From NCBI RefSeq assembly GCF_006175995.1, contig NZ_VDMB01000022.1:910-51008 (forward strand): 50,099 nt of DNA. The letters run 5' to 3'. The stretch's first letter is position 1; the number at the start of each line of letters is the position of its first letter. This document shows, one piece after another, positions 1 through 12,154 of this stretch. The stretch is from Desulfobotulus mexicanus. Lineage in GTDB: Bacteria; Desulfobacterota; Desulfobacteria; Desulfobacterales; ASO4-4. Made by a program: the position numbers and the translations under genes. The notes under the pieces are model-generated. The model had not been told where the DNA came from. It did no database searches and saw nothing but the letters and a program-made list of their open reading frames with translations.

Positions 1-150
1 AAGCTGATAGCACAACAGCGTGTAGGTAACAGGCCCGGCCGAATAGAACCTCGTGAACGTAAAAAAAGGCCTAAAAAATTTCCAAGGCTCAATAAACCAA
101 GAGATGAAAAAAGACTTGAAATTATGAAAAATTGGGACGTTAAATGTTAA
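1..150 (+). pseudogene. C-terminal end of an IS4-type transposase, cut by the window edge
   Basis: The frame is open from base 1 to TAA at 148-150 and gives 49 residues containing RVGNRPGRIEPRERKKRPK and a basic tail ending WDVKC. This Arg/Pro-rich ending (RPGR-EPR-KRRPK) is typical of the C-terminus of IS4-family DDE transposases. The catalytic domain would lie outside the window, so it cannot be said whether the gene is intact. It is followed within 15 bases by a perfect palindrome and then by a broken IS91-family gene, so it is part of a mobile-element pile-up. Confidence 0.6.
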
Positions 151-607: not shown

Positions 608-644
608 GGATAAGATCGTGGTTCGTCCCTCACACGATCTATCC
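608..644 (+). repeat. Strong hairpin behind the IS91 remnant (possible oriIS end)
   Basis: AGATCGTG (613-620) pairs perfectly with CACGATCT (633-640) across a 12-base loop, and GGATA (608-612) continues pairing with TATCC after one bulged base. The hairpin lies about 220 bases after the IS91-type stop codon, where IS91-family elements carry their replication-origin end, and 14 bases from the end of the HEPN-like gene. On the plus strand it is followed by a T-rich stretch. Assignment to oriIS is inference; it could also act as a terminator. The rest of 389-657 holds no credible gene. Confidence 0.45.
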
Positions 645-657
645 TTATTTGTTAGTA

Positions 658-1623
658 TTATGCCGCCCGTATCTGATTTATTAGACGAAATATTCCTTTA
701 CTTAAAGGTAAAGAAACTTTTCCTGCGCGCTCGTAACCATAATTCATAAGATGGTACATTAATGATACAATTGAATTACTCACATTATATAGAGTTAAAA
801 TATCATTGTTCTTCCCACCCAAGTCAAAAGAAACTGGACTTTTTAGCCATTCAGTATTTCTCAACACTATATCATGATCATGAAGAGCTCCTTTATAAGG
901 ATACCAAACACCGTGGGTGTGCTGATAATTAACTTTATTTCGAATTTGAGATGGCCAATTTCCTTTTGCGGCACCAGACATATGTAAAGCCGCTTTAATA
1001 TTTGAAATCAAAGTTAATGCATCCGACTTATGCTTTCCAAGTCCGGTAGTATTTGAAATATTATCAATCAACCATATAAGCAACTTTGAAAATGACAACC
1101 ACGTATCAGCATGTGAGTCTTTTAGTTTGTTGAACTTAATTTTATTATTCAAAATTGATGAAAAATAGAATCCATTTTCTATACTAGAAACACCGCCATC
1201 TAGCTCCGTTACACTCGCAATTTGAAATACTTTATCAACATAATCCCCCTCCAATTGACTACATGCCAATCCATAAATTCGCAATAGAGCATGAGCCGCA
1301 AAAAAAGCAGAATAATACATTTGAACAGCTGCCCATCCCGTACTCTTTGGCAATTTATTAATCTTTCCCACACTCCATATAGATTCAATCGCCGCTTGAG
1401 CAAATCTATTACAATCGTTTGCTAAAGATGCATGTAAGATTTCTGATTGCTGAAACTGTAACTCAAATTCAGTTGCTCGATTTTTTGTGGATGGCTCTAG
1501 ACACTCGGAAACTAAATAGTGACCATTTGCAACCCATGCCTTCAGGTCAGATTCCGTTAATAATTTCACTTCAAATATTTCATTCAACGAAAGCTGGTGA
1601 ATTATTTTTATCTCAGGAATCAT
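658..1623 (-). CDS. HEPN-like domain protein, second gene of a DGQHR-HEPN pair
   Basis: A 321-residue protein that I cannot assign to a named family. Two features suggest a HEPN fold. A helix at about residues 96-116 carries YYSAFFAAHALLR, resembling the Tyr/Ala-rich helix of HEPN proteins. A second segment has Arg228 and His235 in RNKVNYQH, which fits the R-x4-6-H motif of HEPN ribonucleases. There is no signal peptide or clear membrane segment. The ATG (1621-1623) directly follows the stop of the upstream DGQHR gene (TAAATG, no gap), so translation is probably coupled. Base composition is visibly more AT-rich than the arg genes. The 3' end lies 14 bases from a hairpin behind an IS91 remnant, so the last residues may have been altered by that junction. 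A role in RNA cleavage or defence is inference. Confidence 0.55.
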   Translation of the reverse strand: MIPEIKIIHQLSLNEIFEVKLLTESDLKAWVANGHYLVSECLEPSTKNRATEFELQFQQSEILHASLANDCNRFAQAAIESIWSVGKINKLPKSTGWAAVQMYYSAFFAAHALLRIYGLACSQLEGDYVDKVFQIASVTELDGGVSSIENGFYFSSILNNKIKFNKLKDSHADTWLSFSKLLIWLIDNISNTTGLGKHKSDALTLISNIKAALHMSGAAKGNWPSQIRNKVNYQHTHGVWYPYKGALHDHDIVLRNTEWLKSPVSFDLGGKNNDILTLYNVSNSIVSLMYHLMNYGYERAGKVSLPLSKGIFRLINQIRAA

Positions 1624-2595
1624 TTAAAGAGTAAACTCCTGTTTTAATGACTCCTCTAGGTGATCTACGATCGGCTTATAAGCATTAGTAGGGGTTGCAA
1701 GCTTGGCCGGTTTAATTCTTTGACCAGTAATTTCCGTAAACTCATAATAATTATCTACTGAGTAAATTGCTCCGAATCTGTCTTTTACTCTCGCAGTAAT
1801 TATTGGAAAAAAACCCGAAATTGCTTTAAAGACAGTTGTATTAAACGCTTGCTCCTCTAACTTATGGGGGACTAAAACTCCTTCATTGAAAGCAATCAAA
1901 TAAGAATTAAATATTTCATATATTTCGTCTGAATTCTTGTTTCCAAATACTTTCACTAATGGCTTTACGGCAGTGTTAAACACCGAACGTGTTATCTTCC
2001 CCTTTTCTCTCTTCGATGCTGACAGCCTGTTATATAGGACACTGTCATTTTCCGTCGAAAATGTATCGAATAGCTCTCTGAGATATTGCTCAGTATCATT
2101 CTCATACTCGGCCATTTTCTTTATATCTAGGAGAAGCTCGGTAGGCACGCCTTTCTGCTTTGAATTGATATCGATAAATAGCCTAGATTCATCACGTTTA
2201 GATAAATTTTCATAAACTACAACAGGTATTCTGAGAGCCGTTTTTGCGAGCTTAAACCCGTAAACTCGATGCTGTCCATCTATGATTAAAAACGCCTTAT
2301 TAATGCTCAAAAAACTTACGGACTTCCTCTTTGAATCATAATAAAAATCAGAGTCTTCTTGAGCTGATAAGACAATTGAACTAGGTATTGTCCCTAATCC
2401 TGAATCAATGTAATTAGCTATTTCGGCCGCTCTTTTTTTATCCAATTCTCGTTGAAAACCTTCAATAGGGTCTTCATCGCGATTCACAACGAAACATGTT
2501 TCTGCAAGCACGTCACTCGGCATAGTAAATGAGTAAAACCTATAATCACCTTGGCGAACTAGACTTACACTACCATAGCTTACTTTGTCACTCAT
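1624..2595 (-). CDS. DGQHR-domain protein (DndB/DpdB-like)
   Basis: A 323-residue soluble protein with the family's defining motif DGQHR at residues 106-110, preceded by hydrophobic AFLII. The typical flanks are present: an FQR-x-LDKKRAAEIANYI segment at about 47-63 and an FIDINSKQKGV segment at about 140-150. This family, related to the ParB/Srx fold, includes DndB, the regulator of DNA phosphorothioation, and DpdB of 7-deazaguanine DNA modification. None of the partner genes of those systems is nearby; the only partner is the HEPN-like gene that follows with no gap. The ATG at 2595 has an AAGGAAG ribosome site six bases upstream. The gene is AT-rich and sits between mobile-element debris and argH, which suggests transfer. 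The family call is firm; the function is not known. Confidence 0.8.
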   Translation of the reverse strand: MSDKVSYGSVSLVRQGDYRFYSFTMPSDVLAETCFVVNRDEDPIEGFQRELDKKRAAEIANYIDSGLGTIPSSIVLSAQEDSDFYYDSKRKSVSFLSINKAFLIIDGQHRVYGFKLAKTALRIPVVVYENLSKRDESRLFIDINSKQKGVPTELLLDIKKMAEYENDTEQYLRELFDTFSTENDSVLYNRLSASKREKGKITRSVFNTAVKPLVKVFGNKNSDEIYEIFNSYLIAFNEGVLVPHKLEEQAFNTTVFKAISGFFPIITARVKDRFGAIYSVDNYYEFTEITGQRIKPAKLATPTNAYKPIVDHLEESLKQEFTL

Positions 2596-2625
2596 CTGAC
2601 TTCCTTAGTTTGATACCAAGTTTGA

Positions 2626-2901: not shown

Positions 2902-4290
2902 TTACACCCGCTCCTGCGCCAGAACCTCTCTGGCAATATTCACAGCCTTTTGTACATTTTCCGTGGCCGTACCCCCGGCAGATTTTCTGCGGTTTATCAT
3001 ACTTTCTACGGAAAGAGCCTCAAAAAGATCTTCTTCCACAAGCTCAGAAAAACCCTTCAACTCTTCTAAGCTAAGATCCTGCAATTCCTTTCCAAGGGAA
3101 AGGGCGTATGCCACAGCTTTGCCCACAACGCTGTGGCATTTTCTGAAGGGCAGCCCCTTCTCCACAAGGTAATCCGCCATGTCCGTTGCATTGAGAAAGC
3201 CCTTTTCGCAGGAAGACCGCATCCGGTCGGCCAGCACCTTCATGTTGGGCAACATGCGGATATAAATATCCACAACTGACTTCAGGGTATCCACACCGTC
3301 AAAGAGGGGGAACTTGTCCTCCTGCATATCCCGGTTATAGGCCATGGGCAGGGATTTCATGAGGGTGAGAATATTCATCAGATGCCCGTAAACCCTGCCC
3401 GTCTTGCCCCTCACCAATTCAGGAATATCAGGATTTTTTTTCTGGGGCATGATGGAAGAGCCGGTTGTGAAGGCATCGGAAAGCTGAATAAAGGCGAATT
3501 CCGAAGATGACCATAAAATCAGTTCTTCGGAAATCCTTGAAAAATGCATCATGCAGATGGAGGCACAGGCGAGAAACTCCGCCACAAAATCACGGTCCGC
3601 CACCGTATCCATGCTGTTGGCGGAAACCGCCGGGAAATTCAGAAGACTGCGGGTCATTTCCCGGTCTATGGGATGGGGAGTTCCTGCCAGTGCGGCAGCT
3701 CCCAGGGGCAGAACATTGATGCGCTTCAGGGCATCTTTGAGTCGTTCCGCATCCCTTGTGAACATCTCATAATAGGCCATCATGTGGTGGGAAAAAAGCA
3801 CGGGCTGTGCCCGTTGCAGATGGGTGTATCCCGGCATGGGTACTCCCATATGGGCTTCGGCCAGATCCACAAAGGCCCTGCGCAGGGTATGCAGCCCTGT
3901 TATGATCTCTTCTGTTTCCCTGCGCAGCCAGAGTCTGACATCCAGTGCCACCTGATCGTTACGGCTGCGGGCCGTATGGAGTTTTCTTGCCGTATCCCCA
4001 ATTTTTCCCGTAAGGGCCGACTCGATGTGCATGTGAATGTCTTCAAGACTGTCATCGTGCACAAAACGACCCTCTGCAATGTCCTTTTCAATTTCCCTTA
4101 AGCCCTTTTCAATGGCATCGGCTTCATCGGAAGAAAGAATACCCGCAGAAACCAGCATGCGGGAATGGGCAATGGAGCCTTCTATATCTTCCCGGAACAT
4201 GCGGGAATCCGTGGCAATGGACGAGGTAAAGCGCTCCACGCTCTTATCCGTGGGGATATCAAAACGCCCGTCCCATAATTTTTCCGCCAT
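2902..4290 (-). CDS. argH: Argininosuccinate lyase
   Basis: Cleaves argininosuccinate to arginine and fumarate, the last step of arginine synthesis, in the cytoplasm as a tetramer. The 462 residues match the family length. The signature GSSIMPQKKN is at 277-286, carrying the catalytic serine of the mobile loop. HTARSRNDQ is at 105-113, and the YTHLQ block at 155-159 has the His of the acid-base pair. It is the last gene of the arg run, 12 bases after argG. The ATG at 4290 has AAGGAA nine bases upstream. Only mobile-element debris and the DGQHR pair follow. Confidence 0.97.
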   Translation of the reverse strand: MAEKLWDGRFDIPTDKSVERFTSSIATDSRMFREDIEGSIAHSRMLVSAGILSSDEADAIEKGLREIEKDIAEGRFVHDDSLEDIHMHIESALTGKIGDTARKLHTARSRNDQVALDVRLWLRRETEEIITGLHTLRRAFVDLAEAHMGVPMPGYTHLQRAQPVLFSHHMMAYYEMFTRDAERLKDALKRINVLPLGAAALAGTPHPIDREMTRSLLNFPAVSANSMDTVADRDFVAEFLACASICMMHFSRISEELILWSSSEFAFIQLSDAFTTGSSIMPQKKNPDIPELVRGKTGRVYGHLMNILTLMKSLPMAYNRDMQEDKFPLFDGVDTLKSVVDIYIRMLPNMKVLADRMRSSCEKGFLNATDMADYLVEKGLPFRKCHSVVGKAVAYALSLGKELQDLSLEELKGFSELVEEDLFEALSVESMINRRKSAGGTATENVQKAVNIAREVLAQERV

Positions 4291-4302
4291 GATTATTTTT
4301 CC

Positions 4303-5502
4303 TTATTTCTGCATCAGCCGCTGAATACGAAGGCGCAGGGCGTTGAGCCGGATAAAGCCTTCCGCATCCCGCTGCTGGTAAACGCGGTCATCTTCAAAGG
4401 TGGCAAAGGCTTCGGAGTAGATGGAGTTATCGGACTTCCGGCCCAGCACATAGCATTGACCTTTGTAAAGTTTGAGACGCACCACACCATTTACCACGGT
4501 CTGGGTTTCGTCAATCATGTGCTGTAAAAGACGCATTTCCGGAGAGAACCAGAAGCCGTTATAAACCAGCTCCGCATATTTGGGGATGAGGCTGTCACGC
4601 AGATGGGCCACCTCCCTGTCCATGGTGATGGATTCCATGGCCATGTGGGCCTTGCGCAGTACAGTGCCGCCGGGTGTTTCATAAACGCCTCTGGACTTCA
4701 TGCCTACAAAGCGGTTTTCCACAAGGTCAATGCGGCCAATACCGTTGCGTCCACCAAGGGTATTCAGGGTTTTCAGCATACGGGCGGGGCTAAGCTCCTC
4801 GCCATTGACTGCAACGGGGTTTCCGGCACGGAAGGTGATTTCTATGATTTCAGGGGTATCCGGTGCTTTTTCCGGAGCCACGCTCATGGTGTACATCTCA
4901 TCCGTGGCTTCCTGCCATGGGTCTTCCAGCACACCGCCTTCATAGCTGATGTGCAGCATGTTACGGTCTGTGCTGTAGGGTTTTTTAGGGGTGTTGGGCA
5001 CAGAGATATCATGCTTTGCGGCAAAGGCCATGAGGGCCGTGCGGGATGTGAGATCCCATTCCCGCCAGGGAGCAATAATACGGATGTGGGGATCAATGGA
5101 GAAATAGCTCAACTCAAAGCGCACCTGATCATTGCCCTTACCCGTGGCTCCGTGACTGACGGCATCCGCCCCTTCCAGCTTGGCAATTTCCATCTGCCGC
5201 TTGGCAATGAGGGGCCGGGCCAGGGAAGTTCCCAGAAGATACTCCCCTTCATACATGGCATTGGCCCTGAATGCAGGAAAAACATAATCCCGTACAAACT
5301 CTTCCCGCAGATCATCTATGTAGACCTTGGATGCACCGGTTTTCAGAGCCTTCGGCTCAATGAAATCCAGTTCTTCTTCCTGCCCCACATCGGCAGAAAA
5401 TGCGATGACTTCACATTCATAGCTTTCTATAAGCCATTTGAGGATAACGGAAGTATCCAGACCACCGGAATAGGCAAGTACCACCTTTTTAACACCACTC
5501 AT
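4303..5502 (-). CDS. argG: Argininosuccinate synthase
   Basis: Joins citrulline and aspartate with ATP to form argininosuccinate. The 399-residue protein starts [18 protein letters not shown], with the PP-loop AYSGGLDTS at 10-18 that binds ATP. I place the start at ATG 5502 because GGGGGAG lies 9 bases before it. An in-frame ATG at 5520 would add six residues but has no ribosome site and places that G-run inside the gene. It lies between argF and argH in the same transcript. Confidence 0.96.
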
Positions 5503-5564
5503 AAATTGTTTCTCCCCCATCGGATACAGGCCCCTTGGATGCCTGATGGTTCATGAAATTATCT

Positions 5565-6485
5565 TTATTTATTTACCAGGCAATCCAGCAGAGCAGCATG
5601 CATGTGCATCTTGTTTTCCGCCTGATCCCATAGCTCAGGATGGGATTCCATAACACCATCCGTTATTTCCTCACCCCTGTGGGCAGGCAGACAATGCAGC
5701 ACAAGGGCATCCTTTGCCGCCAGTTTCATGCGGGCCTCATCCACACAGAAGCCTTTAAAATCATTTTCCCGTTTTTTCTGCTCTTCTTCCTGCCCCATGC
5801 TGGCCCAGACATCCGTATAAACGACATCCGCACCCGCCATGGCCTCCTCGGGGCTTCGTACCACCTTCACCCGGCCGGGGGATCTTTCTTCCGCCAGCGC
5901 AAGCACATCCCCATCCGGATCATAGCCCTCAGGGCAGGCCAGCATCAGAGAAAAGCCCAGAACACCTGCGGCATTGATCCATGACTGGGCCACATTGTTT
6001 CCGTCTCCCACCCAGGCAAATTTCAGATCTTTAAGTTTATCAAAGCCACCCTTAAGCTCCACCACCGTCAGCAGATCGCTTAAGATCTGGCAGGGATGAA
6101 ATCGGTCACTCAGGGCGTTTATCACGGGAATGGAAGACCATTTGGCAAACTCTTCAATGAGATCCTGAGCATAGGTACGGATCACCAGAACATCTATATA
6201 GCGGGACAGAACCCTTGCCGTATCTTTCACCGGCTCGGATCTGCTCATCTGTGTGGCTCCGGTGGACAGGAACATGGGATGCCCCCCCAGACGGGCCCAA
6301 GCGGATTCAAAGGAAACCCTTGTCCGGGTGGAAGCCTTGTCAAAGACCATCCCCATAACCTTACCCGCAAAGGGTCTGTCAACGATACCCAGACGCCTGC
6401 GGGCCTTCATTTCCAAAGCCCTGTCCATGAGCATGCGGAAATCTTCCCGGCTCAGTTCTCCAAGATGCAGCAGATCCTTTTTCAC
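5565..6485 (-). CDS. argF: Ornithine carbamoyltransferase
   Basis: Transfers the carbamoyl group from carbamoyl phosphate to ornithine, making citrulline. The 306 residues carry the carbamoyl-phosphate loop STRTR at 52-56, HPCQ at 130-133, the ornithine-binding DVWASMG at 225-231 and HCLPAHRG at 264-271. The SMG loop and HCLP motif separate it from aspartate carbamoyltransferase. The start is GTG at 6485, with GGGAGG upstream. It follows argD after about 70 bases that contain a small stem-loop. Confidence 0.96.
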   Translation of the reverse strand: MKKDLLHLGELSREDFRMLMDRALEMKARRRLGIVDRPFAGKVMGMVFDKASTRTRVSFESAWARLGGHPMFLSTGATQMSRSEPVKDTARVLSRYIDVLVIRTYAQDLIEEFAKWSSIPVINALSDRFHPCQILSDLLTVVELKGGFDKLKDLKFAWVGDGNNVAQSWINAAGVLGFSLMLACPEGYDPDGDVLALAEERSPGRVKVVRSPEEAMAGADVVYTDVWASMGQEEEQKKRENDFKGFCVDEARMKLAAKDALVLHCLPAHRGEEITDGVMESHPELWDQAENKMHMHAALLDCLVNK

Positions 6486-6508
6486 CAGTCCTGTTCCTCC
6501 CTAGAAAA

Positions 6509-6532
6509 GCAGCACAGTGGAAAAAATGCTGC
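6509..6532 (-). terminator. Stem-loop with T-run between argD and argF
   Basis: On the minus strand GCAGCA (6532-6527) pairs with TGCTGC (6514-6509) across a 12-base loop and is followed by TTTTC. The stem is only six pairs, so this is at most a leaky terminator or a stabilising element inside the arg operon. Confidence 0.3.
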
Positions 6533-6556
6533 CGTATATTAAAAAATATTGAAATA

Positions 6557-7741
6557 TCAAAGCCCGGACAGCAGCTCCGCCAGAGCCTCAATCATTTCAT
6601 CAATTTCTTCCCTTGTAATGATAAAGGGCGGTGCAAAACGAAGGGTGTTGCCCTGCACGCAATTGATGATAAATCCTTTTTCCATCATGGCTTTCACCAG
6701 AGGCGTTCCCTCACAGGTAAGCTCAATACCCAAAAGAAGACCCAGCCCCCGGACCTCCTTTGCCACGGCTAAGGAAAGAAGACCTTCCAGTTTTTTCTTA
6801 AAATACTGCCCCGTCTCAAAACAGCGCTGCACAAGATTTTCCTGTTCAAGCGTCTCCAGCACAGCCAGCGCACCGGCAGTCACAAGGGGTGTACCTCCAA
6901 AGGTACTGGCATGGGAACCGGGCGTGAAGCTTGCCATCACCCTGTTTTCTGCCAGCATGGCACCAATGGGAAGACCATTGCCAAGGGCTTTGGCAAGGGT
7001 CATGATATCTGGTCTGACACCGCTGTGCTCATAGGCAAAGAGAGTTCCCGTACGGCCGATACCCGTCTGGATTTCATCAAATATCAGAAGAAGCCCCATT
7101 TCATCACAGATGCGGCGAACAGCCTCAAGATAGCCAGTCTCGGGTACGCGCACCCCGCCTTCTCCCTGAACAGGTTCCAGCATAATGGCGCAGGTATGAT
7201 CCGTGATCATCTTTTCAAGGCTTGTGAGGTCGCCATAGGGCACATGGTCAAAACCTTCAAGGACAGGGGCAAAACCCTCCCGGATTTTTTCCTGACCTGT
7301 AGCCGAAAGGGTGGCCATGGTGCGGCCGTGGAAGGATTTATCCATGGCAATGATGCGGTGGCAGTCTGCCCCTTTGTGCTGGTGGCCATATCTGCGGGCC
7401 AGCTTGATGGCGGCCTCGTTGGCCTCTGCACCGGAATTACAGAAAAAAACCTTGTCGGCAAAGCTTCTGGCGGTCAGCCATTCGGCCAGCTTCACCTGAG
7501 GCTCTGTATAAAAAAGGTTGGACACATGCACAAGCTCTGCTGCCTGTGCTGCCATGGCCTTTACCAGAGCAGGATGGCTGTGGCCAAGGCTGCAAACGGC
7601 AATGCCGCTGATGAAATCAATATATTCACGGCCCGTTTCATCCCAGAGCCGTGTTCCCTTCCCCTTCATAAGGGTCAGGGGGTAGCGGGCATAGGTGTGG
7701 GCCATGACCGCATCGGCCCTTTGTTGCAGATTATCCGTCAT
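6557..7741 (-). CDS. argD: Acetylornithine aminotransferase
   Basis: A PLP-dependent class III transaminase that converts N-acetylglutamate semialdehyde to N-acetylornithine. With the start at 7741 it has 394 residues, the usual length. Visible are SGAEANEAA at 103-111, the FDEIQTGIGRTG block with the PLP-binding Asp near 222, and the Schiff-base Lys near 251 in TLAKALGNG. The start at 7741 gives an exact ATGA overlap with the argB stop; a frame open further upstream to 7825 would run inside argB and is not needed. Confidence 0.95.
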   Translation of the reverse strand: MTDNLQQRADAVMAHTYARYPLTLMKGKGTRLWDETGREYIDFISGIAVCSLGHSHPALVKAMAAQAAELVHVSNLFYTEPQVKLAEWLTARSFADKVFFCNSGAEANEAAIKLARRYGHQHKGADCHRIIAMDKSFHGRTMATLSATGQEKIREGFAPVLEGFDHVPYGDLTSLEKMITDHTCAIMLEPVQGEGGVRVPETGYLEAVRRICDEMGLLLIFDEIQTGIGRTGTLFAYEHSGVRPDIMTLAKALGNGLPIGAMLAENRVMASFTPGSHASTFGGTPLVTAGALAVLETLEQENLVQRCFETGQYFKKKLEGLLSLAVAKEVRGLGLLLGIELTCEGTPLVKAMMEKGFIINCVQGNTLRFAPPFIITREEIDEMIEALAELLSGL

Positions 7742-8616
7742 AGAAGCACTTCCGTTCCAATTCCCTGGTCCGTAAACAGTTCCAGCAGCAGAGAATGCCG
7801 CCGGGTTCCATTGATGATATGACATTTGCCCACACCACCGGAAAGGGCGGAAAGGGCATACTCAAGCTTGGGAATCATCCCGCCCACAATGCTTTCATCG
7901 CTGATCATACGCCGAACTTCACCCGTATCAATGGAATGGATCAGCTTTTTATCCCTGTCCAGCACACCATCCACATCGGTGAGAAGAATCAGCCGGAAAG
8001 CCCCCAGAGCCGCTGCAATGCGGCAGGCCACCACATCGGCATTGATATTGTAGGTTTCTCCGTTTTCTCCAACGCCAACTGGTGCCACCACAGGGATAAA
8101 GCCTCTGTCCGTGAGGGTTTTCAGAATATCCGGATTTACATGGGTCACTTCTCCCACAAGACCCGGATCAATGATTTCAGGAGGTGCGTCCCCTACTCCC
8201 TCCTTCATGATGGTCATTTTCCGTGCAGAGACCATGCCTCCGTCCTTGCCCGTAATCCCCACGGCCCGTCCCCCTGCCTGGGCAATCTGGGCCACAATGG
8301 ACTTATTGACCTTACCGCCCAGAACCATTTCCACCACATCCATGGTATCGGCATCCGTAAGGCGCATGCCCCGCACAAACTGGGTTTTTATACCCATGCG
8401 GTCCATGACTTCATTGATCTGGGGACCACCGCCATGCACCACCACAGGATTGATACCTATGTATTTAAGGAGGGTTATATCTCTGGCAAAATCCATTTTA
8501 AGCTGCTCGTCCACCATGGCATGGCCACCATATTTCACAACAATGGTGCTTCCGGCAAACTGGCGGATATAGGGCAGGGCCTCAATGAGAATATCGGCTA
8601 CGTTCTGTGATGGCAT
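7738..8616 (-). CDS. argB: Acetylglutamate kinase
   Basis: Phosphorylates N-acetylglutamate, usually the arginine-inhibited control step. The amino-acid kinase fold shows VKYGGHAM from about residue 27 and VVHGGGPQINE at about 59-69. I prefer ATG 8616 (292 residues, start MPSQNVADI), which has GCGGAA upstream. A TTG at 8664 would add 16 residues unlike the family. It overlaps argD by 4 bases and begins 61 bases after hslU. Confidence 0.95.
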   Translation of the reverse strand: MPSQNVADILIEALPYIRQFAGSTIVVKYGGHAMVDEQLKMDFARDITLLKYIGINPVVVHGGGPQINEVMDRMGIKTQFVRGMRLTDADTMDVVEMVLGGKVNKSIVAQIAQAGGRAVGITGKDGGMVSARKMTIMKEGVGDAPPEIIDPGLVGEVTHVNPDILKTLTDRGFIPVVAPVGVGENGETYNINADVVACRIAAALGAFRLILLTDVDGVLDRDKKLIHSIDTGEVRRMISDESIVGGMIPKLEYALSALSGGVGKCHIINGTRRHSLLLELFTDQGIGTEVLL

Positions 8617-8677
8617 GGTATTTTTTCCGCAAACATTTAAGGTATCGAATAAATTATTCAGCAATACTAAGAATAAA

Positions 8678-10081
8678 TCAGAGAATGAATCGGCTCAGAT
8701 CCTCATCGGATTTCAGCTCAGATAGTTTTTCCCGCACATAGACAGCATCTACAAAGATATTCTTTTCCTTGACATCGGGACCATCAAAAAGCGGATCTTC
8801 CAGAAGGCGTTCCATCAGGGTATGCAGCCTGCGGGCTCCGATATTTTCTGTTCTTCGGTTCACGTCCTCTGCTATGGCAGCAATCTCTTCAATGGCATCT
8901 TCCGTAAACTCAAGGGAAAGACCTTCCGTCTCCAGAAGGGCAGCATACTGCAAAGGAAGCCGGTTCTGGGGTTCCGTGAGAATACGGATAAAATCTTCCT
9001 TCTCAAGACTGTCCAGAGTAACCCGTATGGGGAAACGCCCCTGCAGTTCGGGAATGAGATCCGAAGGCCTGCAGATGTGAAAGGCACCCGCTGCGATGAA
9101 AAGAATGTGATCGGTTTTTACCGGCCCATACTTTGTAGTGACGGTGCTTCCTTCCACTATGGGAAGAAGATCCCTCTGTACACCTTCACGGGATACATCC
9201 GGTCCCTTTCCGCCACTGCGGGCAGCAACTTTATCGATTTCATCCAGAAACACAATACCGGAATTTTCCACAAGGCTGACAGCTGAGCGGCCCACCCTTT
9301 CCATATCCACAAGGCGCTGGGCCTCTTCCGTGGCCATGGTCTCAAGTGCCTCTTTCACAGTCATTTTCCTGCGGCGGGTCTGCTTGGGAATGAAAGCTGC
9401 CATCATGTCCCTGAAATTATTACCCACATCTTCCATGCCTGTACCGGAAAACATATCCATGACCATGCCCTTGGGCTTTTCGGTCATTTCAATTTCCACC
9501 TCCCGCTTATCGAGCTTCCCCTTGCGCAGAAGTGTACGCAGCTTTTCACGGGTACTGCCAGCGTCACCGGAACCAACCATATCAATGCTGCCGTCCAGTA
9601 CAGGACTGGAGGTGCGTCCCGGCGGCAGGAGAGCATCAAGAACCCGGTCTTCGGCAAGGCTCAGGGCCTTTTCTGCCACGGCTTCTTCTTCCTTTACCTT
9701 GACCATGGAAACGCCAATTTCCGTCAGATCCCGGATCATGGATTCAACGTCACGGCCCACATAGCCAACCTCCGTAAACTTGGAAGCCTCCACCTTGATA
9801 AAGGGTGCATCCGCAAGCTTGGCCAGCCTGCGGGAAATTTCTGTTTTACCCACACCGGTAGGGCCGATGAGAATAATATTTTTAGGTGCTATCTCATCCC
9901 TTAAGTGTTCGGGAACCTGCTGCCTGCGCCAGCGGTTGCGCATGGCAATGGCTACGGAACGCTTGGCTGCCTTCTGGCCAATGATATAGGCATCCAGCGC
10001 CTCAACGATGCGTGCCGGTGTCAGGTTGTCTGTGTCGGTGATGGCAGGATTTTTTTCTTCTGTGAGGGCAATTTCGTTCAT
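8678..10081 (-). CDS. hslU: HslU, ATPase subunit of the HslVU protease
   Basis: The AAA+ unfoldase that feeds substrates to HslV. With the start at 10081 it has 467 residues. Walker A GPTGVGKT is at 73-80, the pore motif GYVGRD at 106-111 and Walker B VFLDEIDK at 277-284. The C-terminal tail ends in LSRFIL, the segment that inserts into HslV pockets. The ATG at 10081 overlaps the hslV stop as ATGA and has GAGGAGAT upstream; a frame open to 10123 is rejected because it would run further back into hslV. Confidence 0.97.
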
Positions 10082-10620
10082 CCGATCTCCTCTATGGTGA
10101 ACTGGGAGTTGGTATAGACGCAAAGGCCGGATGCAATCTCCATGGCTCCTTCTGCAATCTCTCTGGCACTTTTATCCGTATGCCGAAAAAGGGCTTCTCC
10201 GGCTGCCTGAGCCGCTACGGACCCGGAACCGATGGCAATGACACCGCTGTCCGGCTCAATGATATCCCCTGTACCGGAAAGAAGATAAATATTCTCATCG
10301 GAAGCAGCAATCATCATGGCCTCCAGGCGGCGCAGCATACGGTCCGTACGCCAGTCCCGGGCCAGCTCAACCGCCGCCCTTGTGAGATTGCCGCCAAAGG
10401 CTTCCAGCTTGGCCTCCAGTTTTTCAGAAAGGGTGAGGGCATCGGCAGTGGCTCCGGCAAAGCCGACAACTATTTTATTTTTATAAATACGCCGGACCTT
10501 ACGGGCACCGTGTTTGACCACAGCGCTGCCAAGGGTGACCTGACCGTCTCCGGCCACAACGGTTTTATTGTCCCTGCATACGGCGATAATGGTTGTGCCG
10601 TGAAAAGTTTCCATAGTCAT
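10078..10620 (-). CDS. hslV: HslV, threonine protease subunit of HslVU
   Basis: The peptidase ring of the bacterial proteasome-like HslVU complex. The 180-residue product begins MTMETFHG followed by TTIIAVCRD. The family's N-terminal nucleophile is the first Thr of this TT pair, so an 8-residue leader must be removed. AGDGQVTLG follows as in other HslV proteins. The start overlaps the xerC stop (ATGA) and the end overlaps hslU (ATGA), which supports co-translation of the three. Confidence 0.97.
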
Positions 10621-11555
10621 TCCTTTGTACCGCTTCTGGGATGGGCCTTGTCATAAACCGCCATCATCCTGTCAAGGGTCATGTGGGTATATCGCTGGGT
10701 TGTGGAAAGGCTTTCATGGCCTAAAAGTTCCTGCACGGATCTGAGATCCGCACCACCATCCAGCATGTGTGTGGCAAAACTGTGGCGGATATCATGGGGA
10801 GAAACCCTCACTGCCAGGCCCGTAGTGCGGGCCGCCTTTTCCAGAATAGTGCGGATACTGCGTACACCAAGCCTTCCCATACGGGTATTCCGGAATAAAG
10901 CCCCCTTATCATCATTGAGCAGCCGGAAAGCAGCCATGCCAGAAAGGGCTTCCCTGTAGTTTTCAAGGGCCTTCAGTGCAGGAACTCCCAGAGGCACCAG
11001 CCTGTCTTTTTCTCCCTTACCGGAGCGAACCCGCACCAGTTCACGTTCCCTGTCTATATCCGAAGCATCCAGACCGGCCAGCTCCGAAACCCTCAAGCCT
11101 GTACTGTAAAGGGTTTCAAAAAGAGCCCGGTTACGCAGATCCTTCCAGTCCGAGGCAGGAAGACTGTCCAGCAGCCGAAAGGTTTCATCCACCGTCAGCC
11201 AGCGGGGAAGATGCTTTTCGGTTTTCGGTGTGGCAATCCCTGCGGTCGGGTCCGTTTCACGCAGATTCTGCCGGATCAGCCAGCTGCAGAAACTGCGCAG
11301 GGCCGAAAGCCTTCTGCCTATGGTGGTTCTGGCCATCTTTCTCCTGAAAAGATCGGCCAGCCAGAGCCGTACCATGTCCTTATCCAGCTCGGCAATGGCA
11401 AGGGGGGCTTTTCTTTTTTTTTCCAGAACATCCAGAAAATCAGAAATATCCCCTTCATAGGCACTGAGGGTATGCATACTGGCATTGCGCTCTGCCTTCA
11501 GGCTTTCCAGAAAAAAAGGCAGTATATCCCGCAAAAATTCATCTTCCATGATCAT
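10617..11555 (-). CDS. xerC: Tyrosine recombinase XerC
   Basis: Resolves chromosome dimers with XerD at the dif site. The 312-residue protein has an N-terminal SAM-like core-binding domain (about 8-95) and a complete catalytic set: Arg155 (in GLRVSEL), Lys180, His254 and Arg257 (in HDIRHSFATH), His280 (in LLGH) and the nucleophile Tyr289 (in QRYTHM). The xerC-hslV-hslU order is a common arrangement, which favours XerC over an integrase. ATG 11555 overlaps the stop of the HAD gene. Confidence 0.92.
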   Translation of the reverse strand: MIMEDEFLRDILPFFLESLKAERNASMHTLSAYEGDISDFLDVLEKKRKAPLAIAELDKDMVRLWLADLFRRKMARTTIGRRLSALRSFCSWLIRQNLRETDPTAGIATPKTEKHLPRWLTVDETFRLLDSLPASDWKDLRNRALFETLYSTGLRVSELAGLDASDIDRERELVRVRSGKGEKDRLVPLGVPALKALENYREALSGMAAFRLLNDDKGALFRNTRMGRLGVRSIRTILEKAARTTGLAVRVSPHDIRHSFATHMLDGGADLRSVQELLGHESLSTTQRYTHMTLDRMMAVYDKAHPRSGTKE

Positions 11556-12154
11556 ACACCAAAAAAATCCGCCAGATCCGACCAGCCCCTGACCTCATGA
11601 AAGGAGTGGGGTCTGCGGTTCCAGGGCTGAACAAAGAGAACCGGCTCTATGCCAGCCTCTTTCAGATGAAAACAGGTCTCCAGCCTGTCTTCCACAAAAA
11701 GCTTTTTTCCCCGGCTCTGCAGAATTTCCGCCTTGGCATCAAAGCTTCCAGTGGCAATAACCTCACAGATATCCTCACCCATATTCAGAGTGTCCTTCAG
11801 CCAGCATTTCACGGATTCTCCATCGGGCCGAGCCGTAACAAAAAGCAGGGGACCGCTTTTTTCTGCAAGTTTGTTAAGAATATCTTTAGCTCCGGGCATG
11901 GCCCCAAGGCGGTGATTGTAGTCCGCACTTACCACACGGGTGATAATCTGAATAAGCGTATCCATATCCACATCCAGACACCGGCTCAGGTCATAATCCG
12001 TTATCTTTTCAGGATAAAGATCCGATAATCCGAACTCGTCCCTGCCAATGGCGGCAAACAGACTCATGGTATCTGCCACAACCCCGTCAAAATCAAAGGC
12101 AAAGGTCTGATCTTTTAAAAATGACTTCCCGATTTTTTCCAGCGAAACCACCAT
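11552..12154 (-). CDS. HAD-superfamily hydrolase (nucleotidase-like)
   Basis: A 200-residue cytoplasmic phosphatase-like protein. Motif I is FDFDGVVADT, with the nucleophile Asp at about 21 and the second Asp at 23. Motif II is LLFVTARP, and a late VEDRLET block is motif IV-like. The length and the insertion after motif I resemble 5'(3')-nucleotidases or phosphoglycolate-phosphatase relatives, but the substrate cannot be read from the sequence. ATG 12154 has GGGAGAAG upstream. It is the first gene of the run leading into xerC (ATGA overlap). Confidence 0.75.
   Translation of the reverse strand: MVVSLEKIGKSFLKDQTFAFDFDGVVADTMSLFAAIGRDEFGLSDLYPEKITDYDLSRCLDVDMDTLIQIITRVVSADYNHRLGAMPGAKDILNKLAEKSGPLLFVTARPDGESVKCWLKDTLNMGEDICEVIATGSFDAKAEILQSRGKKLFVEDRLETCFHLKEAGIEPVLFVQPWNRRPHSFHEVRGWSDLADFFGV

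Follow-up and report, generated by a model that had tools for sequence, protein, structure and literature searches.

The gene pair considered here, from Desulfobotulus mexicanus, encodes a DGQHR-domain protein and a HEPN-like partner, and lies within a 50,099-nucleotide stretch of contig NZ_VDMB01000022.1, that whole stretch being referred to as the window. Described systems bear on both of its halves. Three motifs, QR, DGQ[HQ]R, and FxxxN, are common to DGQHR and DUF262 domains (PMC4619093). In SspE the arginine of this same DGQHR-type motif is essential for GTP hydrolysis, with hydrolysis then licensing the nuclease (PMC13251355). The N-terminus of DndB, in turn, has been grouped with the AbiU1/AIPR abortive-infection family, which is said to carry HEPN domains (PMC3506569). 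Among HEPN proteins, AF0298 and AbiV typically lack the histidine of the Rx4-6H motif but keep its basic residue, and they possess another conserved histidine, found between helices 2 and 3, which has been seen as a possible alternative site (PMC3710099). Already on record, in general terms, are HEPN genes which stand beside ParB-family genes and methylases (PMC3710099). The D. mexicanus pair itself has the look of an anti-phage or toxin-type module not yet described, and its HEPN-fold partner is probably an enzyme that cuts RNA.

A conserved and mobile pair of genes

The pair is read from the minus strand of the window, DGQHR gene first:

1624..2595, minus strand: open reading frame (ORF) of the DGQHR-domain protein, 323 amino acids (aa; P0002), with matches to TIGR03187 and Pfam DndB
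658..1623, minus strand: ORF of the partner, 321 aa (P0001), with a HEPN-fold domain in its predicted structure; predicted ribonuclease (RNase) effector
2601..2606, minus strand: AAGGAA, a likely ribosome-binding site 5' of the DGQHR gene

Both ORFs, along with the DGQHR sequence at residues 106-110, are found by ORF listing and translation just where a first-pass annotation of this DNA had put them. The zero spacing which that annotation described is seen as well, as TAAATG, i.e., the DGQHR stop codon abuts the partner's ATG and the partner starts on the next base. So too is the AT-richness of the unit, G+C content being 33-38% over the pair vs 46-56% at window positions 3001-12000. The source genome (3.83 Mb, 98.14% complete) has a single copy of each gene, and the window's DGQHR protein is the sole Pfam DndB-family protein in that genome.

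To survey how often the two genes adjoin, contigs were scanned with nine DGQHR seeds, each from a pair locus, and the best 80 of 373 confirmed loci were taken. Partners were recognised by an 11-sequence profile (A2; weakest E 1e-24), with the partners of loci L003 and L004 themselves part of that profile. Among these 80 loci, 53 have the partner directly downstream, 23 are without it, and four (L021, L063, L081, L085) are cut, their contigs ending no more than 300 bases from DGQHR. Offsets between the ORF starts run from -50 to +29 over the 53 pairs, the larger negative values being due to choice of an upstream start, and hosts are found among Proteobacteria, Bacteroidota, Clostridia, Cyanobacteria, Acidobacteria, and Verrucomicrobia as well as others. 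The DGQHR gene is split into two ORFs in L019, L057, and L060, and the partner ORF is merely 142 aa in L062. The 23 partner-less loci, together with the cut locus L081, form one clade (support 1.0), hosted by Methylocystis, Methylosinus, other Methylocystaceae, and unresolved alphaproteobacterial or Hyphomicrobiales metagenome-assembled genomes (MAGs). Every locus of the best 80 that lies outside of that clade, and which has enough sequence, has the pair. The Methylocystaceae-type clade (23 loci between L064 and L094) as such displays a related DGQHR protein, 41-44% identical, with the HEPN partner absent.

A similar picture is obtained when starting instead with the partner. A partner-seeded scan of IMG/VR gave 13 loci, of which two (L126, L127) repeat known contigs and one (L125) begins at a contig end; all ten of the new viral contigs have DGQHR directly upstream, nine in full and one (L130) as a 70-aa remnant. 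A partner-first search of plasmids yielded two records, one a pair and the other an orphan from Tritonibacter (L007, 4848-5777), which has no DGQHR in the 10.7 kb examined and which has transposase-like ORFs, presumably IS21-like, directly upstream. Plasmid and phage records with a DGQHR match number 42 and 3, respectively, and eight of these 45 were examined, with the partner present in six (all six within the profile) and absent in two (Lactococcus and Novosphingobium). On the Novosphingobium plasmid pNL1 (L013, 3293-5602) is found a 769-aa protein with a DGQHR domain placed at its middle, the roughly 230 residues before and 200 residues after that domain being without a Pfam match at E 1e-4. 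Among 395 genomes of the window's phylum, the partner was seen in two, both of them also with DGQHR.

The two proteins vary together as well. Pairwise distances of both are correlated at r 0.80 by Mantel test (66 pairs; 0 of 5000 permutations as high), a value in which host kinship is left in. Repeats (L024, L126, L127, L139, then L100 and L138) were excluded from that set and lengths of more than 280 aa for DGQHR and more than 250 aa for the partner were needed; an earlier run, with the window counted twice, gave r 0.81 on 68 pairs. Mean pairwise identity is 44% in the DGQHR half vs 22% in the partner. The two genes, that is, form a conserved unit. Adjacency as a local accident is rejected, as the pair is widespread in both the DGQHR-seeded and the partner-seeded scans, and thus the idea of a two-gene unit, which the first-pass annotation would have given up had the genes been adjacent only here, extends far beyond this genome.

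The pair also is mobile, and has spread horizontally. Its nearest DGQHR relatives, among the best 80 of 373 loci, are gammaproteobacterial (Neptunomonas, Alcanivorax, Oceanimonas, and a partial Shewanella locus; 88-92% at the aa level), and a search of 95 relatives from the genus or order of D. mexicanus turned up no close homologue and, in three of them, distant DGQHR matches of 23-35% identity. At the nucleotide level, the best five loci resemble the window over positions 648-2607, or part of that interval, and nowhere else within its first 6 kb, so the shared block consists of the two genes along with their likely ribosome-binding site; indeed, similarity to the nearest relatives stops at that site, with blastn blocks ending at 2607 (L015) or 2606 (L017). 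Copies occur on plasmids (L006, L008, L011, L014) and in phages, i.e., a filamentous Pseudomonas phage (L009), an Acinetobacter phage (L010), and IMG/VR contigs. This, together with the confinement of similarity to the two ORFs, supports the mobile context that had been proposed from the window by itself. On the Providencia plasmid (L008, 2790-7286) the pair sits between annotated umuD and umuC, and in PfAC19, a filamentous Pf phage of Pseudomonas (L009, 3536-5953), it adjoins the gene annotated as repressor.

The two proteins and their candidate sites

The DGQHR protein belongs to family TIGR03187, at 162.4 bits vs a cut-off of 58.85, and scores 68.7 bits with Pfam DndB. More specific identities were ruled out by equivalog cut-offs: DndB (TIGR03233), 32.1 bits vs 328; DpdB (NF041060), 53.9 vs 300; and DGQHR_dnd_1, 84 vs 450. 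PADLOC models matching this protein are solely DpdB (1e-13) and DndB (1.1e-7), with neither of the two genes being a member of a PADLOC system. The source genome gave no DndC match, nor does the pair belong to a Dnd phosphorothioation system, and the best DndD match there is 30.1 bits vs a cut-off of 245.85. The earlier claim that dnd and dpd partner genes are missing consequently stands, by genome search, for DndC and for DndD above cut-off; DndE and the dpd partners were not searched for. Membership of gene 1 in Dnd or Dpd is rejected by scores and, for Dnd, also by the missing DndC and DndD.

In its model (predicted local distance difference test, pLDDT, 89.0; predicted template-modelling score, pTM, 0.73), this protein would consist of an N-terminal ParB/Srx-type domain (approximately residues 4-165) followed by a C-terminal half made of helices. 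Compared against structures, the model gave 13 ParB/Noc/PadC/KorB rows at Z 7.2-8.7, with sulfiredoxin at Z 4.7-6.2; the top ParB-type row has a root-mean-square deviation of 10.4 over 137 residues and the next five of 2.3-2.8 over 92-99. Rows 1-7 with Foldseek likewise are ParB-type, yet with a best E of merely 3.9e-3, and neither phmmer nor family-profile searches against solved structures found anything. By predicted fold, then, the protein may be placed in the ParB/sulfiredoxin superfamily. Its three motifs, each of them invariant in the 50 sequences of alignment A5 (50/50), are as follows:

2449..2454, minus strand: QR motif, Q48 and R49
2266..2280, minus strand: DGQHR motif, residues 106-110
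2164..2178, minus strand: FxxxN motif, F140 to N144

For the partner, none of the Pfam, NCBIfam, and PADLOC families gave a match with an E of 1 or less. Across 51 partner members the curated HEPN models fare little differently, PF05168 matching one of 51 at E 0.13 and PF01934 one of 51 at 0.092, none above gathering score, and the partner family profile found no match among solved structures. A model built from 51 sequences (pLDDT 94.6, pTM 0.93) is laid out, as predicted, as a HEPN-fold domain with a beta-strand insert and an N-terminal extension. The top match to that model from a second aligner is the HEPN protein AF0298 (2hsb), at Z 10.4 over 123 of 126 residues and 2.8 Å, followed by sacsin HEPN (Z 8.1) and four Roquin/RC3H2 (ROQ) chains (7.1-6.4), with the first unrelated row at 5.9. 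The ROQ region of Roquin contains HEPN-like parts. In profile comparison, helix 2 of the partner, YYSAFFAAHALLR, matches a HEPN type (four sequences) which we take to be UPF0332-like, at a probability of 77.8% vs about 1% when reversed; the repeat comparison gave 79% vs at most 2.4% in 40 column shuffles, with no match to the other PF05168 subtype. A HEPN fold for the partner thus is supported by modelling, as far as this is testable, which is in keeping with the earlier call of a HEPN-like protein, one that was to be dropped had a structure of another kind been predicted.

Residues of interest in the partner are these:

1312..1317, minus strand: Y103-Y104 in HEPN helix 2 (YYSAFFAAH), 62/62 and 61/62; local profile match to the UPF0332-like helix
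1111..1113, minus strand: H171, 61/61; candidate alternative catalytic histidine
925..942, minus strand: R228-N229-x3-Y233 motif within helix 223-234; R, N, and Y each 61/61
919..921, minus strand: H235, the histidine of the R-x6-H described earlier; 41/61, not family-wide

These counts come from 62 aligned partner sequences, of which the short L062 ORF ends earlier or is gapped, and they omit L015 and L024, the partners of which are identical in sequence to those of L003 and L004, respectively. Upon adding 11 sequences, H171, R228, and Y233 are each found in 72/72, N229 in 69/72, and H235 in 45/73 rows. The R-x6-H motif (R228, H235) and the Tyr/Ala-rich helix are both present in the window's partner, just as had been claimed. 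R-x6-H as a family-wide catalytic signature, however, is rejected, with H235 conserved in only 41 of 61 vs 61 of 61 for each of H171, R228, N229, and Y233. The active site therefore should, to go by this pattern of conservation, be better sought at H171 plus R228/N229/Y233 than at R228/H235. In the model, the order is helix 2 (96-116), then H171, and then the R228 helix (223-234), and the four residues would seem to resemble, by analogy, the alternative HEPN site of AF0298 and AbiV. Residues to mutate thereby are corrected to H171, R228, and Y233 instead of H235.

Flanks and neighbouring genes

On one side of the pair lies the following:

1..150, plus strand: 3' end of a transposase gene, which we take to be IS4-like; a mobile element on one side of the pair

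A 98.99%-identical copy of that stretch is found on another contig. The first-pass annotation had described the unit as flanked by insertion sequences (IS) and as inserted beside arg genes. Half of the former is seen, that is, the transposase end, but the opposite side is argH and no second IS was found there, hence insertion with an IS on both sides is rejected; argH on the other flank agrees with the latter. Just beyond the partner's stop codon, at window positions 613-640, is a perfect 8-bp inverted repeat, AGATCGTG/CACGATCT, which the terminator scan did not call; promoter and terminator scanning gave a result at about chance level.

Two congeners have argH proteins 93-95% identical to the window's, with similarity to the window ending near the argH end, at 2886 or 2921. 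In one of these, G001, argH is neighboured by an AAA ATPase and a DUF4276 gene (L145, 5848-7850; PADLOC HEC-01A, 583 bits, and HEC-01B, 286 bits), and in the other, G002, there is an MFS gene at this junction. The junction thus takes varied cargo, one of them PADLOC-listed, as both congeners differ there from the window, and the 3' side of argH may be a hotspot for small cassettes.

Neighbours of the pair in other hosts were scanned with Pfam and PADLOC (270 of 274 chosen neighbours, those of the window and of L024 left out). Six loci (L006, L047, L048, L051, L056, L070) have an N6/N4-methyltransferase (MTase) upstream and five of these have a NotI-family restriction endonuclease (REase) between MTase and DGQHR, the NotI match in L051 being just below the Pfam cut-off (21.4 vs 22). 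Hosts of these NotI-type loci are Acinetobacter, a betaproteobacterial MAG, Microvirga, Caulobacter, Nitrosomonas, and a Vampirovibrionales MAG. In the DGQHR tree all six form one clade (support 1.0), and in the partner tree five of them group together (0.979) with L006 placed beside L059 (0.862). The Acinetobacter phage carries an RsrI-like MTase directly upstream of its pair. Yoonia has a C5-MTase and an NgoMIV REase directly downstream as well as an N6/N4-MTase farther upstream. In a SAR324 MAG (L088, 1-3954) the order is a HEPN gene (PF05168 protein), DGQHR, the partner HEPN, and then a D12-class MTase gene overlapping the partner's end. There are, then, four separate settings with restriction-modification (R-M) or methylase neighbours, i.e., NotI-type, phage MTase, Yoonia, and D12-MTase. 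R-M linkage as many independent events was considered and reduced, by tree clade, to these four settings instead of nine loci. Elsewhere, L128 has a C5-MTase-like ORF about 1 kb off and L014 an annotated restriction endonuclease, both on the other strand, and in L004 a TIR-domain gene of CAP12/Pycsar type adjoins the pair.

Explanations of the pair and its place among known systems

The analysis showed that the pair is conserved, that its two proteins co-vary, that it has spread horizontally, and that its motifs do not vary, and it gave the folds as predicted and the contexts in other genomes. To these the explanation that we favour, with roughly even chances of being correct, would add RNase activity, sensing, and phage defence; in its favour are all of these results, with the R-M or methylase neighbours of four settings and the HEC-01A/B genes of a congener at the argH junction among them. 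It is that of a DGQHR sensor, switched by nucleoside triphosphate (NTP), together with a HEPN RNase effector, serving in abortive or backup defence. The DGQHR protein would bind both nucleotide and DNA, as a sensor or switch, and foreign, damaged, or wrongly modified DNA would alter its nucleotide state. So altered, it may release or activate the HEPN partner, which then could cut RNA via the alternative site of H171 plus R228, N229, and Y233, with the growth of the infected cell presumably halting as a result, to the detriment of the phage. In some lineages the pair would accompany a type II R-M unit and back it up, by abortive action, as a second line of defence. The analogy for this sensor-switch reading is SspE. 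Possible too, but on balance doubtful, is a more far-reaching version, that of an anti-phage system that is widespread and stands alone. In it, a DndB-like NTPase no longer tied to phosphorothioation machinery would read the state or modification of DNA and, by hydrolysing NTP, license a HEPN RNase whose His-Arg-Asn-Tyr active site is non-canonical; SspE/GmrSD-type modification-dependent restriction would thereby have a counterpart that cuts RNA.

A number of points weigh against a sensor paired with a HEPN RNase. The partner-less clade indicates that DGQHR can persist alone, and the 53 of 80 describes this branch rather than all DGQHR proteins since the seeds were all from pair loci. Linkage to NotI-type R-M is at best one acquisition because the DGQHR tree unites the six loci in one clade, the methylase-neighbour settings are raw counts uncorrected for a background rate, an MTase-like ORF is found at some distance in two of the 23 partner-less loci as well, and neighbour families among the matches listed (25 of 114; 25 of 127) are largely ordinary. 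As to the partner, its HEPN Z of 10.4 is less than 13, the value named by the aligner for helical bundles, and Foldseek gave no HEPN match at E 0.001 and nothing at all against PDB and viral models, so for a helical bundle some doubt remains on the HEPN fold. Sequence likeness to HEPN is limited to one helix, a forced global profile alignment (16%) put neither H171 nor R228 on their expected counterparts, and 20 of 61 sequences lack the canonical Rx4-6H, with no other histidine filling the motif in those 20.

The main rival is that of a toxin-antitoxin addiction module, the HEPN protein being toxin and the upstream DGQHR protein both antitoxin and autorepressor, such that the pair stabilises a mobile element and any effect on phages is secondary. 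This explains gene order and mobility equally well, given two genes in fixed order at near-zero spacing and their carriage by plasmids and a filamentous phage, and there is precedent for a HEPN toxin in the HEPN-MNT system (PMC4621449). Both proteins, however, are about 320 aa. That is large for the proteins of a type II toxin-antitoxin pair. In addition, three nucleotide-site motifs are invariant in the DGQHR protein, motifs of which a mere antitoxin would seem to have no need, one clade has DGQHR without the partner, and one plasmid has the HEPN gene with no DGQHR in the 10.7 kb examined. We consider an addiction module unlikely, if still a serious contender.

The roles of the two proteins might instead be reversed, with the HEPN protein a nucleic-acid or nucleotide binding subunit rather than an RNase and the DGQHR protein an effector (by NTP depletion or DNA nicking) or else a transcriptional regulator controlled by the HEPN protein. 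Loss of H235 in 20 of 61 would fit, as would the greater conservation of the DGQHR half (44% vs 22% mean pairwise identity) and the description of ParB-superfamily members having nuclease and NTPase activity (PMC10853773). H171, R228, and Y233 nevertheless are invariant at 22% mean identity, as residues of active or binding sites usually are, and an alternative His/Arg HEPN site has been published as a possibility (PMC3710099), leaving such a reversal decidedly improbable. Less probable again, and indeed very unlikely, is a regulator or accessory of DNA modification which travels with methylases and is not a defence effector. Methylase neighbours in four settings, as well as the precedent of DndB, speak for this, but methylase probes (N6/N4 plus one C5 enzyme) match only a minority of pair loci within the stretches examined, and the source genome is without DndC and without DndD above cut-off.

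No description of a DGQHR-HEPN pair was found in the open-access papers searched, to the extent of the text available there, and the partner's HEPN family is found in none of Pfam, NCBIfam, and PADLOC. On many plasmid records DGQHR proteins are named by domain alone; through the pair, one branch of these gains a constant partner along with a predicted active site and a model that can be tested.

Among known systems, the MAE_28990 HEPN family is like the pair in that its HEPN gene is in an operon with a ParB-superfamily nuclease gene and a DNA methylase (PMC3710099). It is listed, however, with Rx4-6H (PMC3710099), whereas the window's partner, which matches no Pfam family at E 1, has its conserved site at H171/RN-x3-Y. 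AF0298 (2hsb) is the top fold match of the partner, which would also be like AF0298 and AbiV (PMC3710099) in keeping the basic residue, with the canonical histidine dispensable and another lying between helices 2 and 3; the partner, at 321 aa and tied to DGQHR, differs by its beta-strand insert and the extension at its N-terminus. HEPN-MNT toxin-antitoxin (PMC4621449) also is a two-gene unit with a HEPN protein, with an MNT partner there and a ParB/Srx-type partner here. DndB, DpdB, and DGQHR_dnd_1 share the DGQHR domain of gene 1, which nonetheless falls far below their equivalog cut-offs and is found in a genome with no DndC and no DndD above cut-off. SspE, GmrSD, and BrxU (DUF262 NTPase plus nuclease) resemble the DGQHR protein in their ParB/Srx-type domain and in QR, DGQ[QH]R, and FxxxN, though fold matches of the DGQHR model to these are weak (SspE 3.6, BrxU 3.4), and for them the proposed logic is one of an NTPase-controlled nuclease. 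In these proteins the domain is joined to an HNH DNase, while in the window's pair there is a HEPN partner instead. The pair thus would link ParB/Srx-type sensors, so far tied to DNases (SspE, GmrSD) or to gene expression (DndB), with cleavage of RNA.

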